Below are positions 4,406-40,692 of a DNA stretch of 49,034 bases, piece by piece. The notes under the pieces are model-generated. The model was not told the origin of the DNA. It ran no database searches and saw only the letters and a list, made by a program, of their open reading frames with translations. The first letter of the stretch is position 1. Each line of letters begins with the position of its first letter. The DNA comes from Flavobacteriia bacterium (GTDB lineage Bacteria; Bacteroidota; Bacteroidia; Flavobacteriales_D; Crocinitomicaceae): contig CANHRS010000010.1 of NCBI GenBank assembly GCA_947463445.1, positions 1 through 49,034 on the forward strand, read 5' to 3'. The position numbers and the translations under genes were made by a program.

Positions 4406-5095
4406 CTATTTCACAATTAATTGAAAGCCCTTACCATGTATATTCATAATTTCTATGGTTGAATCTTCTTTTAATAATTTTCGCAATTTCGCAATATACA
4501 CATCCATACTACGTCCATTGAAATAATTATCATCTCCCCAAATTGCACGTAAAGTTGCTTGGCGATCAATTACTTCATTGGTATTTTTCGTTAACAAACT
4601 TAAAAGTTGGTTTTCTTTTGTGGTTAATTTAACTACTCCAGTTGGTAAATATAACATGCGCGATTGAGCATCGAAGACAATAGCTCCAATTTTGATTTTA
4701 CTATCTTCCATATGATTTTTAACGGAACTTCTTCTACTTATTGCTTCTATGCGCGCAATTAATTCTTCCATGGAAAACGGTTTTGTTAAATAATCATCTG
4801 CACCTACAGCAAAGCCTGCTAATTTATCTTCTTCTAGGGATTTTGCAGTTAAAAATAAAATCGGAATTTGTTTGTTTAATTCACGTATTTCTTTTGCTGT
4901 TGCAATTCCATCTAATATTGGCATCATGACATCCAAAATACAAAAATCAATTTTTTCAGAATTAAAATACTCTAACGCTATTTTCCCATTACGCGCTAAT
5001 TTAACCTGGTATCCTTTGGATGTAAGAAATGTATGTAATAATAGCCCTAGATTGTCATCATCTTCAGCTAATAAAATAGTTAGTTTATTTTCCAT
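4406..5095 (-). CDS. OmpR/RprY-type response regulator
   Basis: DNA-binding half of a two-component system. It has 229 residues. The receiver (about 1-120) has the acidic pocket EDD at 11-13, phospho-acceptor Asp55 in ILDVMMP, a Thr in LFLTAKS and the conserved Lys in DDYLTKPFS. A winged-helix effector domain (about 130-228) follows, with the typical LTTKENQLLSLL and VDVYIAKLRKLL-type segments. It starts 9 bases after the stop of the sensor kinase gene, so the two are co-transcribed partners. The resemblance is to Bacteroides RprY; the signal and target genes cannot be read from the sequence. Confidence 0.93.
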   Translation of the reverse strand: MENKLTILLAEDDDNLGLLLHTFLTSKGYQVKLARNGKIALEYFNSEKIDFCILDVMMPILDGIATAKEIRELNKQIPILFLTAKSLEEDKLAGFAVGADDYLTKPFSMEELIARIEAISRRSSVKNHMEDSKIKIGAIVFDAQSRMLYLPTGVVKLTTKENQLLSLLTKNTNEVIDRQATLRAIWGDDNYFNGRSMDVYIAKLRKLLKEDSTIEIMNIHGKGFQLIVK

Positions 5096-5104
5096 GTTTA
5101 AATT

Positions 5105-6727
5105 TTAAATCGTTAATGGAATTTTGACACTAAATTCCGAACCTATATTTACTTGACTTTTTACTTTCAATTGCCATTGATTTAAAGTTACAATCGCTTT
5201 TACATAACTTAATCCGAGTCCAAAACCTTTCACATTATGTAAATTCCCAGTAGGAATTCGGTATAATTTATCGAAAATCTTTTCAATATGTTCCTTAGGT
5301 ATTCCAATTCCTTCATCCTTTATAGTTAATTCGATGGATTGCTTGTTTTTCCTTAATTCCACTGTAACTTTTGGAATTTCTTTACTGTATTTTATAGCAT
5401 TATCAATTAGGTTAGAAATGATATTTACGGTATGCATTTTGTCTGCAACGATATGAATTGGTGAGATATCTAAATTTTTCACGATCTCTCCACCAAGTGC
5501 TTTGATTCTAAATTGTGCATGTACACATAATTCCTCTACTATTTCAGTTAGATTAATTTGTTCCTTTTTTAATTCAATATCTTTTTTGTCAATAGCAGCA
5601 CTTTGCAGGATTCGCTCCACAAGCAGTTCAAGTCTATTGTTTTCTTGATGAATCATCTGAACAAATGGTTCAGTTTTGGTGGATTCTTCTCCCATTAAAT
5701 CTTTGTCACGAAGTGCTTGACAGGCAAGCGAAATAGTAGAAATTGGTGTTTTGAATTCATGCGTCATATTAGATATGAAGTCATTTTTTAATTCACTTAG
5801 TTTTTTTTGTGTGATGATAGTCTTGAACATATAGGATATTGCATATAGTATTAGTAATACTAGTAGAATACTTATACTAAATGGGATAAACATTTCATAA
5901 AAAAGGAATGATTTTTCGGTTGGAAATTTCAAATAAAGGTATAGACTTTCATCTATAATATTGGATGGAAATAATTGTGTTTTAAATGCATTAGCTGTAT
6001 CTGCAGTACACGCGTAATGTGAGGTAGTTGTATTAAAATGAATTGCTTCATTACTTTCATTTTTAACAACAAAACGAAATTCTTTTGGAAGTTTATCCAT
6101 TCTTGTCTCATATGCAATGATAGAATCAAGAAAGTGGATATCGATTCTTTTTTCTGGTGCAACAAACGTATTATCATGAAAGGCTACAAATAGCATCTCA
6201 TTGATAAGTTTCGATTTTTTAAATATTTGTTGCATTATTCGTTGATCTAATTGATTAGATACGTTTTCGCTTTTATCTTGTTTTGACTTTACAATGTCTT
6301 GATTAAAAATTTGTTGAATATTTCGCACATCTTTTGCTAATACTTGATGCTCTGTTTTTAATCCAGATATAGTATCAAATGCAGAGCCTTGAATAATTAG
6401 GTATTTATTAAATTTTCCATTTTCAAGTAAAACCGTGTCGCGAACACGAATGCTTTCTTCAGAAGTAAGTAAATTTTGGAATTCTTTTTTTAATATGTCT
6501 TTATATTCAAATCCAAAATCTTTGTTGACAACATGTAAGTATTTACGAAGTTCTATTGCTTTTTCATGGCGAATTGCAATACGCTCTATTAGTGTTTTTA
6601 CTTTGTCCTTAAATTCTTCCGATTTTTGATTATACTGTTGAGATACTTGGTAAAATTGAATTAGCAACAATGAAATCATCGCTAGTGATACAATCCCAAT
6701 AATCCAATTAATTCTAATTTTAAGCAT
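5105..6727 (-). CDS. Membrane sensor histidine kinase (RprX-like)
   Basis: This 540-residue inner-membrane kinase partners the response regulator directly downstream. One membrane helix lies at about residues 8-27 and a second at about 275-298. The roughly 245 residues between them form a periplasmic sensor region with no domain I recognise. A HisKA box follows with NMTHEFKTP, giving phospho-acceptor His323. The HATPase domain has the N box (LIDNAIKYS), G1 (DEGIGIP), F box (IFDKLYRI) and G2 (GFGLGLSYV). It is the first gene of a minus-strand kinase-regulator-pth group. A 7-of-8 match to the -7 element (bases 6740-6733) lies just upstream of the ATG. Confidence 0.93.
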   Translation of the reverse strand: MLKIRINWIIGIVSLAMISLLLIQFYQVSQQYNQKSEEFKDKVKTLIERIAIRHEKAIELRKYLHVVNKDFGFEYKDILKKEFQNLLTSEESIRVRDTVLLENGKFNKYLIIQGSAFDTISGLKTEHQVLAKDVRNIQQIFNQDIVKSKQDKSENVSNQLDQRIMQQIFKKSKLINEMLFVAFHDNTFVAPEKRIDIHFLDSIIAYETRMDKLPKEFRFVVKNESNEAIHFNTTTSHYACTADTANAFKTQLFPSNIIDESLYLYLKFPTEKSFLFYEMFIPFSISILLVLLILYAISYMFKTIITQKKLSELKNDFISNMTHEFKTPISTISLACQALRDKDLMGEESTKTEPFVQMIHQENNRLELLVERILQSAAIDKKDIELKKEQINLTEIVEELCVHAQFRIKALGGEIVKNLDISPIHIVADKMHTVNIISNLIDNAIKYSKEIPKVTVELRKNKQSIELTIKDEGIGIPKEHIEKIFDKLYRIPTGNLHNVKGFGLGLSYVKAIVTLNQWQLKVKSQVNIGSEFSVKIPLTI

Positions 6728-25464: not shown

Positions 25465-25848
25465 ATGAAAACGCTCTATTTTTTTTCTTTATGCTTTTTT
25501 CTTGTTGCTTGTTCCTCCAAAACTGAAATTGTAGAAGCACCAAAAAAGATGCGTATTATTAATCAATCTAGCGCCAAGAATGGTATTATAACTGCAAAAT
25601 TTACGGTTTGGGGAAATTGTGGTATGTGTAAAGAAACCATTGAGAGATCTGTAAAAATTTCAGGGGTTAAAAAAGCAAATTGGCAAATTGAAAGTAAAAT
25701 CATGACGGTTTCATTCGATACTACTCTTGTAGATGTAACATCTATTCAAAAAGCAATTGCTGCAGTAGGGTATGATAATGTGCAATATACTGGTGATAAT
25801 ACTGCATATGCGAAATTGCATGCATGTTGTCAGTATGAACGTAAATAA
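25465..25848 (+). CDS. Heavy-metal-associated (HMA) domain lipoprotein
   Basis: 127 residues. A lipoprotein signal (MKTLYFFSLCFFLVAC) places the lipidated Cys at residue 16. The HMA ferredoxin-like domain spans about residues 41-112. Its metal-binding loop is GNCGMC, with Cys52 and Cys55, and the second half (VTSIQKAIAAVGYDNV) is typical. This fold usually binds Cu(I) or a similar ion. A C-terminal tail contains His119, Cys121 and Cys122, possible extra ligands. It is predicted to sit in the envelope as a copper chaperone or buffer. No copper ATPase or efflux gene is adjacent, so the pathway is unknown. Confidence 0.82.
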   Translation: MKTLYFFSLCFFLVACSSKTEIVEAPKKMRIINQSSAKNGIITAKFTVWGNCGMCKETIERSVKISGVKKANWQIESKIMTVSFDTTLVDVTSIQKAIAAVGYDNVQYTGDNTAYAKLHACCQYERK

Positions 25849-25913
25849 ATGCGTTAATCCTTTAGCTTAACTATTATTTAATATTCAATAAAATTTTTAT
25901 TCGTATTAATACT

Positions 25914-25921
25914 TAAATTTG
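25914..25921 (+). promoter_or_regulatory. -7 promoter box (TAAATTTG) for the NarL-type regulator
   Basis: Exact TAnnTTTG match 30 bases before the ATG at 25951, giving a leader of about 25 bases. Confidence 0.6.
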
Positions 25922-25950: not shown

Positions 25951-26586
25951 ATGATTCATATTTTTCTAGTAGATGATCATAAAATTCTTCGCAAGGGTTT
26001 GAAGTTTATTCTGGAGTTAGACCCCAATTTAAAAGTGGTAGGCGAAGCGAATTCTGTAAGAGAGGCTATATCTACAATTTCTTCCTCGGAAAGTATGGAT
26101 ATTGTTATTACCGGGATCAACTTACCGAATGAATCTGGTTTAGAGTTGATAAAGTATCTTACTCTTACTAACCCTCGTGTCAAAAGTATTGTTTTTTCTA
26201 TGAATTTAGAATGCTCGTATGCGTTAAAGGCAATGGAAATTGGTGCTAGTGGGTATGTAACTAAAAATTCTGAGGATTTTGAATTAGTAAATGCAATCCT
26301 CGAAGTATATCAAGGTAATACTTTTGTATCGCAGACAATGGAGCAGGAGATTAAAAAAAATAAAGCATGCACATTGGATAATGAGATTCAAATTTCGCCA
26401 AGAGAATTAGAAGTCTTGAACCATATAGTAGAAGGCTGGAGCAATAAAATGATAGGAGATATTATGTACGTAAGTGAAAGTACGGTTAACACGCATCGTT
26501 ATCATATCATGAAGAAATTAAATGCTAAGAATACTGCAGATTTGGTTCGTATTGCTTTTTCTAAAAAATTAGTTACTTCAAACTAG
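25951..26586 (+). CDS. NarL/FixJ-type regulator with a receiver lacking the phospho-acceptor Asp
   Basis: 211 residues. The receiver (about 1-120) starts IHIFLVDDHKILRKGL with the acidic pair Asp8-Asp9. At the position of the phosphorylated Asp, within DIVITGINLPNESG, residue 55 is Gly (codon GGG at 26113). The Ser in VFSMN and the Lys in GYVTKN are kept. The C-terminal LuxR-type helix-turn-helix (about 143-205) is normal: ISPRELEVLNHIVEGWSNKMIG and SESTVNTHRYHIMKKL (each in part). It may therefore act without phosphorylation or through a ligand or partner. No histidine kinase is adjacent. Its 3' end overlaps the convergent FISUMP gene by 14 bases. Confidence 0.88.
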   Translation: MIHIFLVDDHKILRKGLKFILELDPNLKVVGEANSVREAISTISSSESMDIVITGINLPNESGLELIKYLTLTNPRVKSIVFSMNLECSYALKAMEIGASGYVTKNSEDFELVNAILEVYQGNTFVSQTMEQEIKKNKACTLDNEIQISPRELEVLNHIVEGWSNKMIGDIMYVSESTVNTHRYHIMKKLNAKNTADLVRIAFSKKLVTSN

Positions 26587-27235
26587 ATCGCATACATCGA
26601 ACACTTAATCCTCCATTTACTTCAAAATTGTAGTGATTAATGTTTGTTGGCGAAAAGTACCACATCCAAGCAAAACCTTTGTAATCTAACGTAGTAGTCC
26701 AAAAATAAGCGAAAGATTGTTGGAAAATATAGTTTCCACTTATCATTCTACCACCAGGGTACTGTAGTATCTTCATGTATGGAATTTCGCTAGATTGATT
26801 TATTTTTTTATAAATGAAGTTTGCATTATCGTTGTCAGTTACTAAATAACTATTTGTTTCTGTATATATTTTGTCCACTAAAGCTTTCCACTCGATATTG
26901 CTTGGTACTTTCCAACCAGTAGGGCAAATTCCGCGATTGTCTACTGCGCATCCCCAAGTGTATAGGTAACCTTGATTTTTAGTTCGTTCTGTATCTCCTC
27001 CCGGTGCCCATCTAAAAATACTATTTGTGTCATTCGCAAGAATGGAATGACTGTTTTTGGTGGTTGGAATGGAATCCCCATTTGAAAAATGTGTCGTTTT
27101 TAAATTTTCAAGAAACCATTCGGTACTATCCACACGAATTATTTGGTAAGTGTTTCCATCAATATCTTGTATGCTATTTTGCGCGAATATTTTCAGTGAT
27201 AGTAAGATAATTAATGCAGATAATTTAAATTTCAT
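26573..27235 (-). CDS. FISUMP-domain secreted protein
   Basis: 220 residues with a signal peptide (MKFKLSALIILLSLKIFAQ). The remainder is one Fibrobacter succinogenes major paralogous (FISUMP) domain. Hallmarks are DIDGNTYQIIRVDSTEWFLENLKT, a YTWGCAVDNRGICPTGWKVPSNIEW segment (in part) and the closing GGLSVRCMR. The two Cys of the RGICPTGW and VRCMR segments are typical. The fold is common in exported Bacteroidota proteins, but its role is not established. It begins 20 bases after the MORN-protein gene and probably shares its transcript. Confidence 0.85.
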   Translation of the reverse strand: MKFKLSALIILLSLKIFAQNSIQDIDGNTYQIIRVDSTEWFLENLKTTHFSNGDSIPTTKNSHSILANDTNSIFRWAPGGDTERTKNQGYLYTWGCAVDNRGICPTGWKVPSNIEWKALVDKIYTETNSYLVTDNDNANFIYKKINQSSEIPYMKILQYPGGRMISGNYIFQQSFAYFWTTTLDYKGFAWMWYFSPTNINHYNFEVNGGLSVRCMRSSLK

Positions 27236-27255: not shown

Positions 27256-28116
27256 TTAATTGATTTTTCCCTCTGAAAAATAAAATCCATCGCGATAGAT
27301 ACTGATTGATTTTAATAGTCCGTTGTTGTCGTAATTGTACACTTTTCCATTATAAATAGTACCAAATTTGAAGCTTCCTACTTGAAATAATTCATCTTGT
27401 TTGTTGTACACTACATTATATCCATTTGGATCAAATGGACCATCCTTCAAGATTGGACCAGCAACACGAATTGCATTAAATCCTGTGGCTAGTATTGGCA
27501 TATTAGAATTGAATGCAATATCATTATAAACGATTGGTTGAACTTTCCCTTGTTTTTTAATATGTATTTGACTGCTAACTACACCAGATGAAGCATACCA
27601 AGTGACCTCCCCTTGTACTTGATCATTCTTCATGACATAATTTAACGCCAATTGACCAGTATTATAGTAGTGCTTCGTGTTTCCTATTTGTTTTCCTTCT
27701 TTGTCATAAATGGATACGCTAGAAATTTTGCCGTTTGGAAAAAAACAGGTCAATGTATCTCTAAAATGTTTATTAGTATAAATTCCCTTTTCTTTGATCG
27801 TTCCATTAGGATAAAATTTTTCGTAAAATCCGTTCGGTTCGTTTGCTGTATAATTTCCTTTTAATTTAGGTGTTTTACCATCTGGATAATATTTAGTCCA
27901 AACACCTTCTTTTTCCCCTTTAACACTAATTCCTTCTTCTACTTTAACGTGTTGTGCATAATTACTATTTGGTACATCTTTTCCGTAAATGGTCATGAAT
28001 AAAGTGTCCGTTTTTGGTTTTGGATGATTAGATTGAGAAAATCCGAATGGATTAAAGCTTAATAGGAATAAAATGAGTAGTATTTTGTATGAGAATATTG
28101 ATTTTGTCTTTTTCAT
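27256..28116 (-). CDS. Exported MORN-repeat (YwqK-like) protein
   Basis: 286 residues with an N-terminal hydrophobic signal (ILLILFLLSFNPFGFSQ). At least five MORN-variant units follow between about residues 65 and 180, such as GVWTKYYPDGKTPKLKGNY, GFYEKFYPNGTIKEKGIY, FFPNGKISSVSIYDKEGK and YYNTGQLALNYVMK. Similar proteins are often annotated as YwqK-type antitoxins, a label that comes from a remote Bacillus relative. Here the signal peptide and the FISUMP neighbour favour an envelope protein of unknown role. Confidence 0.8.
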   Translation of the reverse strand: MKKTKSIFSYKILLILFLLSFNPFGFSQSNHPKPKTDTLFMTIYGKDVPNSNYAQHVKVEEGISVKGEKEGVWTKYYPDGKTPKLKGNYTANEPNGFYEKFYPNGTIKEKGIYTNKHFRDTLTCFFPNGKISSVSIYDKEGKQIGNTKHYYNTGQLALNYVMKNDQVQGEVTWYASSGVVSSQIHIKKQGKVQPIVYNDIAFNSNMPILATGFNAIRVAGPILKDGPFDPNGYNVVYNKQDELFQVGSFKFGTIYNGKVYNYDNNGLLKSISIYRDGFYFSEGKIN

Positions 28117-28146: not shown

Positions 28147-28154
28147 CAAAGTTA
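28147..28154 (-). promoter_or_regulatory. -7 promoter box (TAACTTTG) for the MORN-FISUMP pair
   Basis: Exact TAnnTTTG on the minus strand, 31 bases upstream of the ATG at 28116. Confidence 0.55.
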
Positions 28155-28406
28155 GGTCAATCTTGGGTATGTTTTTATGATTTAAATCATTAAAGTGTTT
28201 TTTCATAGATTTCTATGAGTACCCTGTATTTACTTAACTTTTTGTTAATTATAACGTCACATACTTCCAATTATTTATCTTATTATTTTTTAAAAAAAAG
28301 ACTGTAATAACTTGTGCTAAAAGAGAATAAATTTAAATTCAAATTTTGGTTAATAAAACATGCTTAATAGTTGAAAGAAAATTTTAATCCCAAACTTTAT
28401 TCCTCG

Positions 28407-28437: not shown

Positions 28438-31311
28438 ATGAGTGCATTTTCTGAAAGACACATAGGGTCAAATGAAGCTGAAAAGCAAGCTATGTTGGCG
28501 AAAATTGGAGTTTCATCCATCGCTGAATTAATTGATAAAACTATTCCTGCTCAGATTCGTTTGGGACGTGAATTAAATATTTCGGATGCTTTGACAGAAC
28601 AAGAATACCTAACACATATTCAAGAGTTAGCATCTAAAAACAAGGTGTTTAAATCTTATATTGGATTAGGGTATAATGATACAATCACACCTTCTGTGAT
28701 TTTAAGAAATGTATTGGAAAATCCAGGATGGTATACGGCATATACGCCATACCAAGCGGAAATTTCTCAAGGTCGTTTAGAGGCTTTGTTGAACTTCCAA
28801 ACAATGATTTTGGATTTGACAGGAATGGAAATTGCAAACGCTTCTTTGTTGGATGAAGCTACTGCTGCAGCTGAGGCGATGCTTATGTTCTTTAATTCCC
28901 GTTATAGAAATGATATTAAAGCAGGGAAAAATAAATTTTTCGTTTCTGAATTTGCTTTCCCACAAACGATTGATGTAATCAAAGGTCGTGCAGCAAACTT
29001 AGGAATTGAATTAGTAATCGCTGATCCAGAGACAGTAACTTTTGACGGTACATTCTTTGGAGCATTAACACAATATCCAGATGCGTTAGGTCGTATTCAA
29101 GATGTTGCTGGATTTATTACTAAAGCACACGCATTAGAAATTAAAGTTGCAGTTGCAGCAGATATTATGTCCTTAGTATTGTTGAAATCTCCAGGTTCTT
29201 TGGGAGCGGATGTAGTATTAGGTTCTTCACAACGTTTTGGTGTACCAATGGGATATGGTGGACCACACGCTGCATTCTTTGCATGTAAAGATGAGTTCAA
29301 ACGTACAATTCCAGGTCGTATCATCGGTGTTTCTAAAGATGCAGATGATAACCTAGCGTTACGTATGGCGTTACAAACACGTGAGCAACATATTAAACGC
29401 GATAAAGCGACTTCCAATATCTGTACAGCGCAAGCATTATTAGCAGTTATGGCAAGTATGTATGCGGTATATCATGGACCAGCACGTTTAAAAGCGATTG
29501 CTACGGATATTCATACAAAAGCAACTACTGTTGCTAGCGAATTGAAAAAATTAGGATATACGGTAAAATCGGATAACTATTTTGATACATTATGGGTGGA
29601 ATTACCAGCTACTGTTTCTGTTGCAACGTTGAAATACCAAACAGAGGCAAACGAAATTAATTTACGTTATGTAAATGATTCACAGGTTACTATTAGTTTT
29701 GGTGAATCTATTACGAATGCGGATTTAAATACTTTAGTAAATGTATTTGCGCAAGTAGCTGTGAAACCAGTTGTAACGGTAGAGAAATCTTCAACGGTTA
29801 CCATTGCTGCAAATGATTTACGTACAGAAGCAATTTTAACGCACCCAACGTTCAATACCCATCATTCTGAATCGCAAATGATGCGTTACTTGAAACGTTT
29901 GGAAAACAAAGATTTGTCTTTAGTACATAGCATGATTCCATTAGGATCTTGTACCATGAAATTAAATGCTGCGACGGAATTAATGCCTATCACAAACCCT
30001 TCGTTTGCGAATATGCACCCATTTTGTCCGGTAGAACAAGCAGAAGGATACCACGAAATGTTACGCCAGTTAGAAATCGATCTTTCTGAATGTACTGGAT
30101 TTGCAGGGACTTCCTTACAACCAAATTCTGGTGCACAAGGAGAATACGCAGGTTTAATGGTAATGAAAGCATACCACGAATCTCGCGGTGATTTCCACCG
30201 TAAACACATGATTATTCCTTCTTCTGCTCACGGAACAAACCCTGCTTCAGCAGTTATGGCTGGATTTGAAGTAGTAGTTACTGGTTGTGATGAAAACGGA
30301 AACATCGACATCGAAGCATTACGCGAAAAAGCAATTGAGTTAAAAGACACTTTAGGTGGTTTAATGGTTACGTACCCATCAACACATGGTGTATTTGAAG
30401 AAGGTATCATTGAAATTACTTCTATCATCCATGAAAATGGTGGTCAAGTATACATGGATGGTGCAAATATGAATGCGCAAGTTGGATTAACTAATCCAGG
30501 AAATATTGGTGCGGACGTTTGTCACCTGAACTTACATAAAACATTTGCAATTCCACATGGTGGAGGTGGACCAGGTATGGGACCAATCGGTGTGGCAGCA
30601 CACTTAGTTCCTTTCTTACCAGGAAGTCCATTATTGGAAGCTGGTGGTGAAAAAGCAATTCATGCGGTTTCTGGAGCTCCTTACGGAAGTGCATTGATTT
30701 TGTTGATTTCGTATGGTTACATCAAAATGTTAGGTGCAAAAGGATTGAGAGAATCTACGGAAAATGCAATTTTAAATGCAAATTACATCGCTACGCAATT
30801 GAAAGCGCATTACCCAATCTTGTATACAGGTAAAAACGATACAGTAGCACACGAGTTAATCTTAGATTGTCGTGAGTTTAAAAAGAATGCAGATGTTGAA
30901 GTAGCGGATATGGCAAAACGTATGATCGATTTTGGATTCCATGCGCCAACCGTTTCTTTCCCAGTTGCTGGAACGTTAATGATTGAGCCTACGGAAAGTG
31001 AAGATAAAGCAGAATTAGACCGTTTCATTGAAGCAATGATCAAGATTCGTCAAGAGATTGCGGAAATCGAAAATGGACATGCAGATAAAGTAAACAACTT
31101 ATTGAAAAATGCACCGCATACCGCAGATTGCATCATCAATAAAAACTGGGAATACCCATACACACCTGCTGAAGCAGTATATCCAGTAGCTTACTTGAAA
31201 GAGTTTAAATATTGGGTACCTGTACGTCGTGTAGACAATGCGTTTGGTGATAGAAACTTAGTGTGTTCCTGTCCAAGTGTGGAGAGTTATGCGAATGTAG
31301 TGGAGGCTTAG
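28438..31311 (+). CDS. gcvP: Glycine dehydrogenase (decarboxylating), P protein
   Basis: PLP-dependent P protein of the glycine cleavage system: decarboxylates glycine and passes the aminomethyl group to lipoyl-GcvH. At 957 residues it is the fused, full-length form with both halves. The N-terminal half has FSERHIGSN, SYIGLGYNDTITPSVI, GWYTAYTPYQAEISQGRLEAL (in part) and LDEATAAAEAM. The C-terminal half has HSMIPLGSCTMKLNA, SSAHGTNPASA and HLNLHKTFAIPHGGGGPG with Schiff-base Lys701. It is monocistronic, with its own promoter and a terminator about 120 bases after the stop. gcvT and gcvH are not in the window. Confidence 0.98.
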   Translation: MSAFSERHIGSNEAEKQAMLAKIGVSSIAELIDKTIPAQIRLGRELNISDALTEQEYLTHIQELASKNKVFKSYIGLGYNDTITPSVILRNVLENPGWYTAYTPYQAEISQGRLEALLNFQTMILDLTGMEIANASLLDEATAAAEAMLMFFNSRYRNDIKAGKNKFFVSEFAFPQTIDVIKGRAANLGIELVIADPETVTFDGTFFGALTQYPDALGRIQDVAGFITKAHALEIKVAVAADIMSLVLLKSPGSLGADVVLGSSQRFGVPMGYGGPHAAFFACKDEFKRTIPGRIIGVSKDADDNLALRMALQTREQHIKRDKATSNICTAQALLAVMASMYAVYHGPARLKAIATDIHTKATTVASELKKLGYTVKSDNYFDTLWVELPATVSVATLKYQTEANEINLRYVNDSQVTISFGESITNADLNTLVNVFAQVAVKPVVTVEKSSTVTIAANDLRTEAILTHPTFNTHHSESQMMRYLKRLENKDLSLVHSMIPLGSCTMKLNAATELMPITNPSFANMHPFCPVEQAEGYHEMLRQLEIDLSECTGFAGTSLQPNSGAQGEYAGLMVMKAYHESRGDFHRKHMIIPSSAHGTNPASAVMAGFEVVVTGCDENGNIDIEALREKAIELKDTLGGLMVTYPSTHGVFEEGIIEITSIIHENGGQVYMDGANMNAQVGLTNPGNIGADVCHLNLHKTFAIPHGGGGPGMGPIGVAAHLVPFLPGSPLLEAGGEKAIHAVSGAPYGSALILLISYGYIKMLGAKGLRESTENAILNANYIATQLKAHYPILYTGKNDTVAHELILDCREFKKNADVEVADMAKRMIDFGFHAPTVSFPVAGTLMIEPTESEDKAELDRFIEAMIKIRQEIAEIENGHADKVNNLLKNAPHTADCIINKNWEYPYTPAEAVYPVAYLKEFKYWVPVRRVDNAFGDRNLVCSCPSVESYANVVEA

Positions 31312-37606: not shown

Positions 37607-38458
37607 TTAGCCAAGGAGCTGTTGTTCTTCATTCAATTTATACAAAATGGTTGGCAGAAATTCATTTAATTTAGAAAACGCGAACCACTTCTTACCCAAA
37701 TCTTTTAAAGAAGCACCGATATGGTAAACTTCCTTTCGGTCAAGGATTAGAAATCGGTCGTGGGCAGTTTTCAGTGTTTTAATTTCAATTATCGGATATT
37801 GTATATTGTGTTTTGTCAAATCTAATTGCAATTGAGCACTTAATTTTTGTGTGTAAATGGTAGCATTGCAATTGGGTTTTCGTTTGCTCAACATTAATAG
37901 GGTGGTTTCGTCAACGTAATTATCAATCAGAATAATGGTCTTTTTAGCTCTTTTAATGAGGTCGTTAGCGAAAACATAGGTATCGAATAATTGTCCTTCG
38001 AAAAACACGCCTTGAGTTGGTAGTTCATTGGTATTGAGTTGTAAAGAGATTCTATTCACTTGTTTTGTTAGATCCTCAAGATTATTTTCTATTCGATCCA
38101 CACGCTGGTTAATTGCATAACCTTTGAGTAAGTATTCACGCAAAATAGTTGTTGCCCATATTCTAAATTGTGTTCCTTGTTTGGATTTAACTCTATATCC
38201 AACTGAAATTATGACATCCAGATTATAAAAAGCAACAAGTTTATCGGAATTAGGAATATGCACTTTTTGCATATTGCTTTTTTCATCAAGTTCTTTTTCT
38301 CTAAAAACATTTCTTATGTGCCTCGAAATTACAGATTGATCACGTTGAAAAAGAATAGATATTTGTTCCTGATTTAGCCAAACAGTCTCATTTTCAAGTC
38401 GAACTTCTATGTGTTCATCTGCCTCATTTGGTCGGTATATTATGATTTCATTCTTCAT
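37607..38458 (-). CDS. RhuM-type protein with a PLD-like C-terminal domain
   Basis: 283 residues. The N-terminal half (about 1-120) is the virulence RhuM domain: VRLENETVWLNQEQISILFQRD, SVISRHIRNVFREKEL and YNLDVIISVGYRVKSKQGTQFRIWA (in part). This is a winged-helix-like module found in mobile and phage-associated proteins. After a predicted helical linker (about 120-150), the C-terminal part resembles a phospholipase D-like fold: FDTYVFANDLIKRAKKTIILIDNYVD (in part), HDRFLILD and IGASLKDLGKKW. The catalytic HxKxxxxD motif appears as His233-Arg235-Asp240, with Arg in place of Lys. Function is unknown; a role in DNA or RNA handling, such as defence, is possible. It lies between two copies of another gene and 16-base direct repeats, suggesting insertion. 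Confidence 0.82.
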   Translation of the reverse strand: MKNEIIIYRPNEADEHIEVRLENETVWLNQEQISILFQRDQSVISRHIRNVFREKELDEKSNMQKVHIPNSDKLVAFYNLDVIISVGYRVKSKQGTQFRIWATTILREYLLKGYAINQRVDRIENNLEDLTKQVNRISLQLNTNELPTQGVFFEGQLFDTYVFANDLIKRAKKTIILIDNYVDETTLLMLSKRKPNCNATIYTQKLSAQLQLDLTKHNIQYPIIEIKTLKTAHDRFLILDRKEVYHIGASLKDLGKKWFAFSKLNEFLPTILYKLNEEQQLLG

Positions 38459-39144: not shown

Positions 39145-40692
39145 CTAATGTCTCAAACTTATCCTAAAAGTAGTTCCTTTATCGATTTCGGAATGTAATA
39201 CAAACACATTTCCTTTATGGTATTCATTGATAATTCGTTTCACTAAAGAAAGTCCAAGTCCCCAACCGCGTTTTTTGGTGGTATACCCTGGCTTAAAAAT
39301 GGTTTTAAACTGATTGTTTGCGATTCCTTTTCCTGTATCCTGAATGTCGATATTTACATGGGTATTATCGCGCGAAATATGGATATTTAATTGCCCGGAA
39401 GTTTCCATGGAATCTACAGCATTTTTGGTAATGTTTTCAATCACCCATTCTATCAACGGCGGGTTGTGAGGAACTAGCATTTCCTGTGAATCGCTTTGTA
39501 TGGAAAATTGAATTTTGCTCGAGATACGTAATTTCAAATAATCAATCACCGTACTAACGGTTTCTACTATGTTTTTGTCTTCGAGTTGTGTTGCTGAACC
39601 AATTTTAGAAAAACGGTTGGCCACTTGTTCTAAGCGACTCACATCTTTTTGCATTTCTACAGGAATATTCGGATCTATGTTTTGAGTTTCTAAATATTGT
39701 ACCCAGGCTAATAAAGAGGATAGAGGTGTACCTAATTGATGGGCTGTTTCTTTCGCCATTCCTGCCCAAACTTGGTTTTGTTCCGCTTTACGGAAGGTAT
39801 TGAAGATGAGGTAACCCACAAAAATAAATAGGGTAAAAATGATAAATTGCACATATGGGAAATACTGTAATTTTTTTAATTCAGGACTATCATCATAATA
39901 CAACAAACTATGTTGTTTGCTGCCAAAATTGATTGGAATCGCTTTATTACTGTGCTTTAATTGTTCGATTGTTTCTAACAATTCACTTCTTCGTTGATTG
40001 CTCAATGGAAGATTTGTTGCTAATATGGAATCTGAATCAGCATCTATCAATAATACTGGAACAGCGCCTTCATTCGCTTTCAATTCTATGTTAAATGCAT
40101 GTATCAAAGAATCTCTTTCACGTTCTAATCGTGTGATTTCTTTGGAATCGGTATAGGCACAATTCATCACCAATCCTTCATCGATTTCGATGGTGATTTT
40201 GTATTTCCAAGAATTTGCTAAATAGAGAAGCGTATCGTTAAACATCCGTTTTACGGTCGTGTCAGGTATGGCGTCGTGTAAATTATTGAAATCGGAATAC
40301 GTGAAATCGAGGTGAAGATGTTCTGAAATATCGTTGTTGTTATCGAAGATAATTACAGGAATAGACTTGTTTATGCCTATAATTTTTAAAGGTAAGGTAT
40401 AATCAGGCATTTGTTGTCCGTCGACCGGTTTTAAAATCTCTTTAGTGGCAATACTCCATAATTCCATTTCATTTCGTTCTTTGTCGCGTAGCTGAGAGAA
40501 AGTGCGATTGGTAAGTTGCACCAATTCTGCTTTTTTCTTTATTGCCTCCGCCCATTGTTTTACGCGGTAGCGTTCTCGTATACTTACTTTGGAGACGATG
40601 GAATTAGAGAAAAATAAAGACGCGGATATCAATACCAGCGCGATGCCAAGTAAAATGATTTTCCAACGTTGTTTTTTTGAATAAAGATTCAT
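39145..40692 (-). CDS. Orphan membrane sensor histidine kinase
   Basis: The start at 40692 (MNLYSKKQRWKIILLG) gives 515 residues; a longer frame to 40767 would begin upstream of the promoter box. Membrane helices lie at about 10-30 and 268-290, bounding a periplasmic sensor region of about 235 residues with no domain I recognise. The kinase core has AKETAHQLGTPLSS with phospho-acceptor His318, a variant H box, then the N box (VIENITKNAVDSM), G1 (DTGKGI) and G2 (GWGLGLSLVKRI). No response regulator gene is adjacent, so its partner is elsewhere. The stimulus is unknown. Confidence 0.9.
   Translation of the reverse strand: MNLYSKKQRWKIILLGIALVLISASLFFSNSIVSKVSIRERYRVKQWAEAIKKKAELVQLTNRTFSQLRDKERNEMELWSIATKEILKPVDGQQMPDYTLPLKIIGINKSIPVIIFDNNNDISEHLHLDFTYSDFNNLHDAIPDTTVKRMFNDTLLYLANSWKYKITIEIDEGLVMNCAYTDSKEITRLERERDSLIHAFNIELKANEGAVPVLLIDADSDSILATNLPLSNQRRSELLETIEQLKHSNKAIPINFGSKQHSLLYYDDSPELKKLQYFPYVQFIIFTLFIFVGYLIFNTFRKAEQNQVWAGMAKETAHQLGTPLSSLLAWVQYLETQNIDPNIPVEMQKDVSRLEQVANRFSKIGSATQLEDKNIVETVSTVIDYLKLRISSKIQFSIQSDSQEMLVPHNPPLIEWVIENITKNAVDSMETSGQLNIHISRDNTHVNIDIQDTGKGIANNQFKTIFKPGYTTKKRGWGLGLSLVKRIINEYHKGNVFVLHSEIDKGTTFRISLRH

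Follow-up and report, generated by a model that had tools for sequence, protein, structure and literature searches.

Genes and features of the locus

In the window, by which we mean the whole 49,034-nucleotide stretch analysed here, a gene for an atypical NarL/FixJ-type response regulator is preceded by an HMA-domain lipoprotein-like gene and followed by two minus-strand genes encoding a Fib_succ_major-domain protein and a MORN_2-repeat protein, and by a gene which we take to be gcvP (Table 1). The 3' ends of the regulator and Fib_succ genes overlap by 14 nt (26573-26586), and the identical overlap is present in four species. At 37607-38458 the minus strand encodes a RhuM-family protein (PF13310); members of this family often reside on mobile DNA.

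Table 1. Coordinates of genes and candidate regulatory elements, as positions in the window
Feature	Coordinates	Strand	Remarks
HMA-domain lipoprotein-like gene	25465..25848	+	left border of insertion; present without regulator in two congeners
Dyad GTAT-N2-ATAC	25903..25912	.	just upstream of -7 element; arms invariant in four species
TAAATTTG, putative -7 element	25914..25921	+	matches TAnnTTTG; conserved in four orthologous loci
NarL/FixJ-type atypical response regulator (aspartate-less receiver + LuxR/GerE HTH)	25951..26586	+	211 aa ORF
Fib_succ_major-domain protein	26573..27235	-	N-terminal signal-like stretch; convergent with regulator
MORN_2-repeat protein	27256..28116	-	N-terminal signal-like stretch; upstream gene of putative MORN-Fib_succ operon
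CAAAGTTA (plus strand) = TAACTTTG (minus strand)	28147..28154	-	invariant; possible -7 element of MORN-Fib_succ operon
Dyad TGAT-N4-ATCA	28178..28189	.	conserved
Dyad TCATAG-N4-CTATGA	28203..28218	.	16 bp; upstream of MORN-Fib_succ operon; candidate operator of regulator
Dyad TTAAC-N5-GTTAA	28234..28248	.	conserved
gcvP (presumed glycine dehydrogenase)	28438..31311	+	right border of insertion

The acceptor position of the receiver

Pfam assigns residues 4-116 of the regulator to Response_reg (PF00072, E = 1.9e-22) and residues 148-202 to GerE (PF00196, E = 2.5e-19), and this order of receiver and LuxR/GerE HTH, typical of the NarL/FixJ family, is also seen in the AlphaFold model (mean pLDDT 88, pTM 0.62), which shows a complete (beta-alpha)5 receiver followed by an HTH of four helices. 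The solved folds nearest to the model are LiaR (5hev) and DesR (4ldz), with NarL-family proteins overall (LiaR, VraR, DesR, RcsB, NarL) as its structural kin; by profile the best solved relatives are NarL (E = 1.3e-50) and LiaR/VraR.

The phospho-acceptor aspartate that ends beta-3 in canonical NarL/FixJ proteins is absent from the regulator and its three orthologues, all of which have glycine at this position (Gly55; in the window the codon is GGG, at 26113-26115). In the AlphaFold model beta-3 stops at residue 54, so that Gly55 is predicted to occupy the acceptor point, and the residue aligns with an aspartate in every one of the 39 full-length NarL-type relatives taken from the genus, family and order. 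The peculiarity of the regulator, as judged from these alignments, is the loss of the aspartate alone from an otherwise kept active site: D8, D9, S83, K105 and Y102 (three residues before the Lys) are all retained, as are Pro at D+4 and Gly at D+8. A true replacement of the acceptor within an intact remaining pocket, joined to an intact HTH, is thus supported by sequence, in agreement with a preliminary description of the gene which had reported the Gly55 substitution together with an undamaged acidic pair, Ser/Thr, Lys and HTH. Residues found only in the Gly55 proteins are mostly located in the HTH (M167, M172, S177, H185), which would fit a private DNA target; N85 at T+2 is likewise confined to this clade.

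Two neighbouring residues were considered as substitute acceptors. Asp50, which the preliminary description had named as a possible refutation, is the usual conserved residue five positions before the acceptor, and Asp-bearing relatives have aspartate at both 50 and 55. Thr54 is rejected as a compensating gain, since threonine stands in the same position in the Asp-bearing proteins L038 (VVVTDITM) and L039 (IITDMSMP).

Other degenerate receivers were encountered in the compared genomes. A second NarL-type pseudo-receiver of the same genome (L002:1498-2172; G000:C50:4412-5053) has serine for the second acidic residue (ADSNEL), retains the acceptor aspartate (DIILIDYTSP) and has no kinase gene within 1.5 kb on either side; its serine is common to five congeners (L017, L018, L020, L028, L029). 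Two further proteins with a LuxR-type HTH have a degenerate receiver: in one (L030:1477-2133, genome G012) the acceptor is replaced by Glu and the Lys by His, and the other (L006:1483-2133, G000) is devoid of the acidic pair.

Conservation and selection

Three congeneric orthologues share 85, 82 and 76% identity with the regulator, and they also turned up in named metagenome-assembled genomes (MAGs). The public MAG titles for loci L042 and L044 (Chitinophaga pinensis, Chryseobacterium gleum) conflict with the close kinship of the loci and look wrong. Glycine at position 55 is present in all four proteins and is encoded by GGG here and in one other species and by GGT in the remaining two. Pairwise dS among the four genes is 0.6-1.5, with synonymous sites near saturation, and pairwise dN/dS over the whole gene is 0.06-0.12; the linker is the most variable part and, in most pairs, the HTH is the most constrained. 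Persistence of Gly55 through codon changes at high dS and low dN/dS shows that this residue is constrained.

A missing catalytic residue is also what one would expect of a paralogue that is decaying or has no function, or of a sequencing error. Both explanations are refuted by the conservation of the gene and we regard them as exceedingly improbable: the reading frame is intact in four species, the promoter is conserved, dN/dS is low, and orthologues share the glycine with differing codons. The preliminary description had argued against a read error on the ground that GGG is two changes away from an aspartate codon, which is right for the source genome, and conservation now makes such an error untenable; the comparison of orthologues at residue 55, which it had proposed, found Gly rather than Asp in all three. 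On the sequence evidence the regulator, a 211-residue reading frame at the coordinates given in the preliminary description, is an undamaged orphan gene under purifying selection.

The Gly-type protein appears to be confined to this group at the thresholds used. When 84,980 genomes were scanned with a peptide pattern, hits above 34% identity were limited to the three orthologues already described, and order-wide (399 genomes) and phylum-wide (395 genomes) samples contained no further Gly-type relative.

Origin of the gene block and loss of the kinase link

In a maximum-likelihood tree the four Gly55 proteins form a single clade on a long stem (support 100/100), with the Asp-bearing L038 of the same family as sister (92/83, fair support) and other Asp-bearing proteins next. 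The gene order is common to the four species and consists of the genes for the mutase large and small subunits, the HMA protein, the regulator, Fib_succ and MORN proteins, and gcvP. In two congeners gcvP directly follows the HMA gene, the regulator, MORN and Fib_succ genes all being absent from the slot, and in a third gcvP comes after the mutase gene. The neighbourhood comparison suggested by the preliminary description therefore makes the regulator, MORN and Fib_succ genes look like a block that was gained (or lost) together.

Directly upstream of most Asp-bearing relatives, and in equal orientation, lie genes for large proteins; the one preceding L038 encodes a large multi-domain protein. 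Judging from sequence and context, the upstream proteins of L038, L039, L013-L015 and L040-L041 resemble sensor kinases. Linkage to a kinase has been lost in the Gly55 lineage. The earlier statement that there is no kinase nearby holds within about 12 kb of the regulator and does not extend to the whole window, which contains a HisKA kinase (5105-6727), adjoined by an OmpR-type regulator of its own (4406-5095), and, at 39145-40692 on the minus strand, a sensor-kinase-like protein with HATPase_c, lacking both a HisKA-type Pfam match and a neighbouring regulator. A genome-wide search for HisKA_3, the domain of cognate kinases of canonical NarL/FixJ regulators, gave two places (C12 and C5), each adjoining its own Asp-type NarL regulator. 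Because the genome is 91% complete, a partner kinase could sit in the missing part.

Promoters and candidate operators

The sequence TAAATTTG is located about 30 bp upstream of the regulator start, and its conservation in four loci is in line with the good promoter noted previously. We take it to be a -7 element of the Bacteroidota type, which has the consensus TAnnTTTG. The adjacent dyad GTAT-N2-ATAC is a weak candidate for an operator of the regulator's own gene; an equally long dyad arose in 39 of 2000 column shuffles.

Three dyads whose centres are spaced by 27 and 30.5 bp are found on the MORN side. The arms of the longest, TCATAG-N4-CTATGA, are invariant in four species and its spacer varies; column shuffling yielded an arm of at least 6 in 36 of 2000 trials, although, like that for GTAT-N2-ATAC, this test was run after the pattern had been seen. 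A perfect copy occurs once per genome in the four Gly55 genomes, always upstream of the MORN-Fib_succ operon, and in none of nine other congeners. A reversed control pattern is likewise rare (about 0.2 perfect copies per genome, 0 or 1 each), and therefore conservation of the dyad is informative, whereas its absence elsewhere says little. Sites with one mismatch occur at or below the control rate, which leaves a wider regulon unsupported, and a terminator is ruled out, since on neither strand is the stem followed by a T-run. In G012 there is a distant MORN-Fib_succ pair with no regulator and no dyad within 12 kb; thus, the operon does not need the regulator.

Discussion

With a PF00072 receiver that has no acceptor aspartate, the regulator belongs, on sequence grounds, to the known class of aspartate-less receivers (ALRs), and its lineage and gene block are new to that class. 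Two surveys put the share of ALRs at about 4% of receivers (PMC4395418) and at 2.0% of PF00072 domains (PMC12632262). Glycine takes the place of the aspartate in about 11% of ALRs and was, as of 2015, the sole common replacement without a characterised structure (PMC4395418). Nearly all characterised ALRs are orphans (PMC4395418), and our literature search on aspartate-less examples in Bacteroidota gave nothing more. Like RitR, JadR1, RedZ, BldM/WhiI and CmrT, which are usually orphans, the regulator combines a PF00072 receiver lacking the acceptor with a DNA-binding output; unlike the class at large, it has lost the aspartate alone and kept the rest of the pocket as well as the D+4 Pro and D+8 Gly. 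It resembles NarL, VraR, LiaR and DesR in domain order, fold and HTH but differs from them by having neither the acceptor nor an adjacent kinase. With VpsT/CsgD-type proteins it shares a receiver-like domain without normal phosphorylation in front of a LuxR HTH; however, it aligns with VpsT over the C-terminal half alone (profile 104-202).

We consider it probable that the protein is a lineage-specific aspartate-less NarL/FixJ regulator which acts without phosphorylation and has the adjacent operon as its likely target. The acceptor would have been lost once, in the ancestor of the four congeneric species, and the glycine kept since. The protein may fold and dimerise as an ordinary NarL-type regulator and would bind DNA without Asp phosphorylation, its activity being set either by its amount or through contact of the receiver with a ligand or partner. 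The MORN-Fib_succ operon, proposed tentatively as the likeliest target, would be addressed through the dyads at 28178-28248, and autoregulation may occur via GTAT-N2-ATAC. What ties the operator to the regulator is proximity and dyad conservation alone, and other transcription factors could bind there.

The on/off control of pseudo-receivers has been described as unresolved (PMC12632262), and in the present case the sequence does not decide between ligand or protein contact and constitutive activity set by protein amount. A regulator whose emptied pocket binds a metal, a small anion or a protein, and whose targets lie elsewhere in the genome, is conceivable though rather doubtful. The four proteins show no variation at D8, D9, S83 and K105 or in the Y-T pair (S83, Y102), a fuller set than many pseudo-receivers preserve (the figure given for the Y-T pair is 47%; PMC12632262), and the clade-only N85 points in the same direction; yet retention may reflect mere structural constraint, and the sequence suggests no ligand. 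It is tempting to combine pocket and operon into a Gly-type ALR that serves as a dedicated one-operon switch, sensing a ligand in its emptied pocket and gained together with its target as a module, but we hold this to be unlikely. By analogy with BldM and WhiI of Streptomyces, orphan atypical regulators for which heterodimer control is described (PMC4125116), the protein might instead modulate a phosphorylatable NarL-type regulator and alter its DNA binding. Other Asp-type NarL regulators are indeed encoded in the genome (L003, L004), but neither conserved pairing nor co-localisation with another regulator was seen, which makes such a role improbable.

Otherwise one among many aspartate-less receivers, the Gly55 regulator would be a convenient test case for pseudo-receivers, as it offers a single catalytic difference, Asp-bearing relatives and a candidate operator next door.
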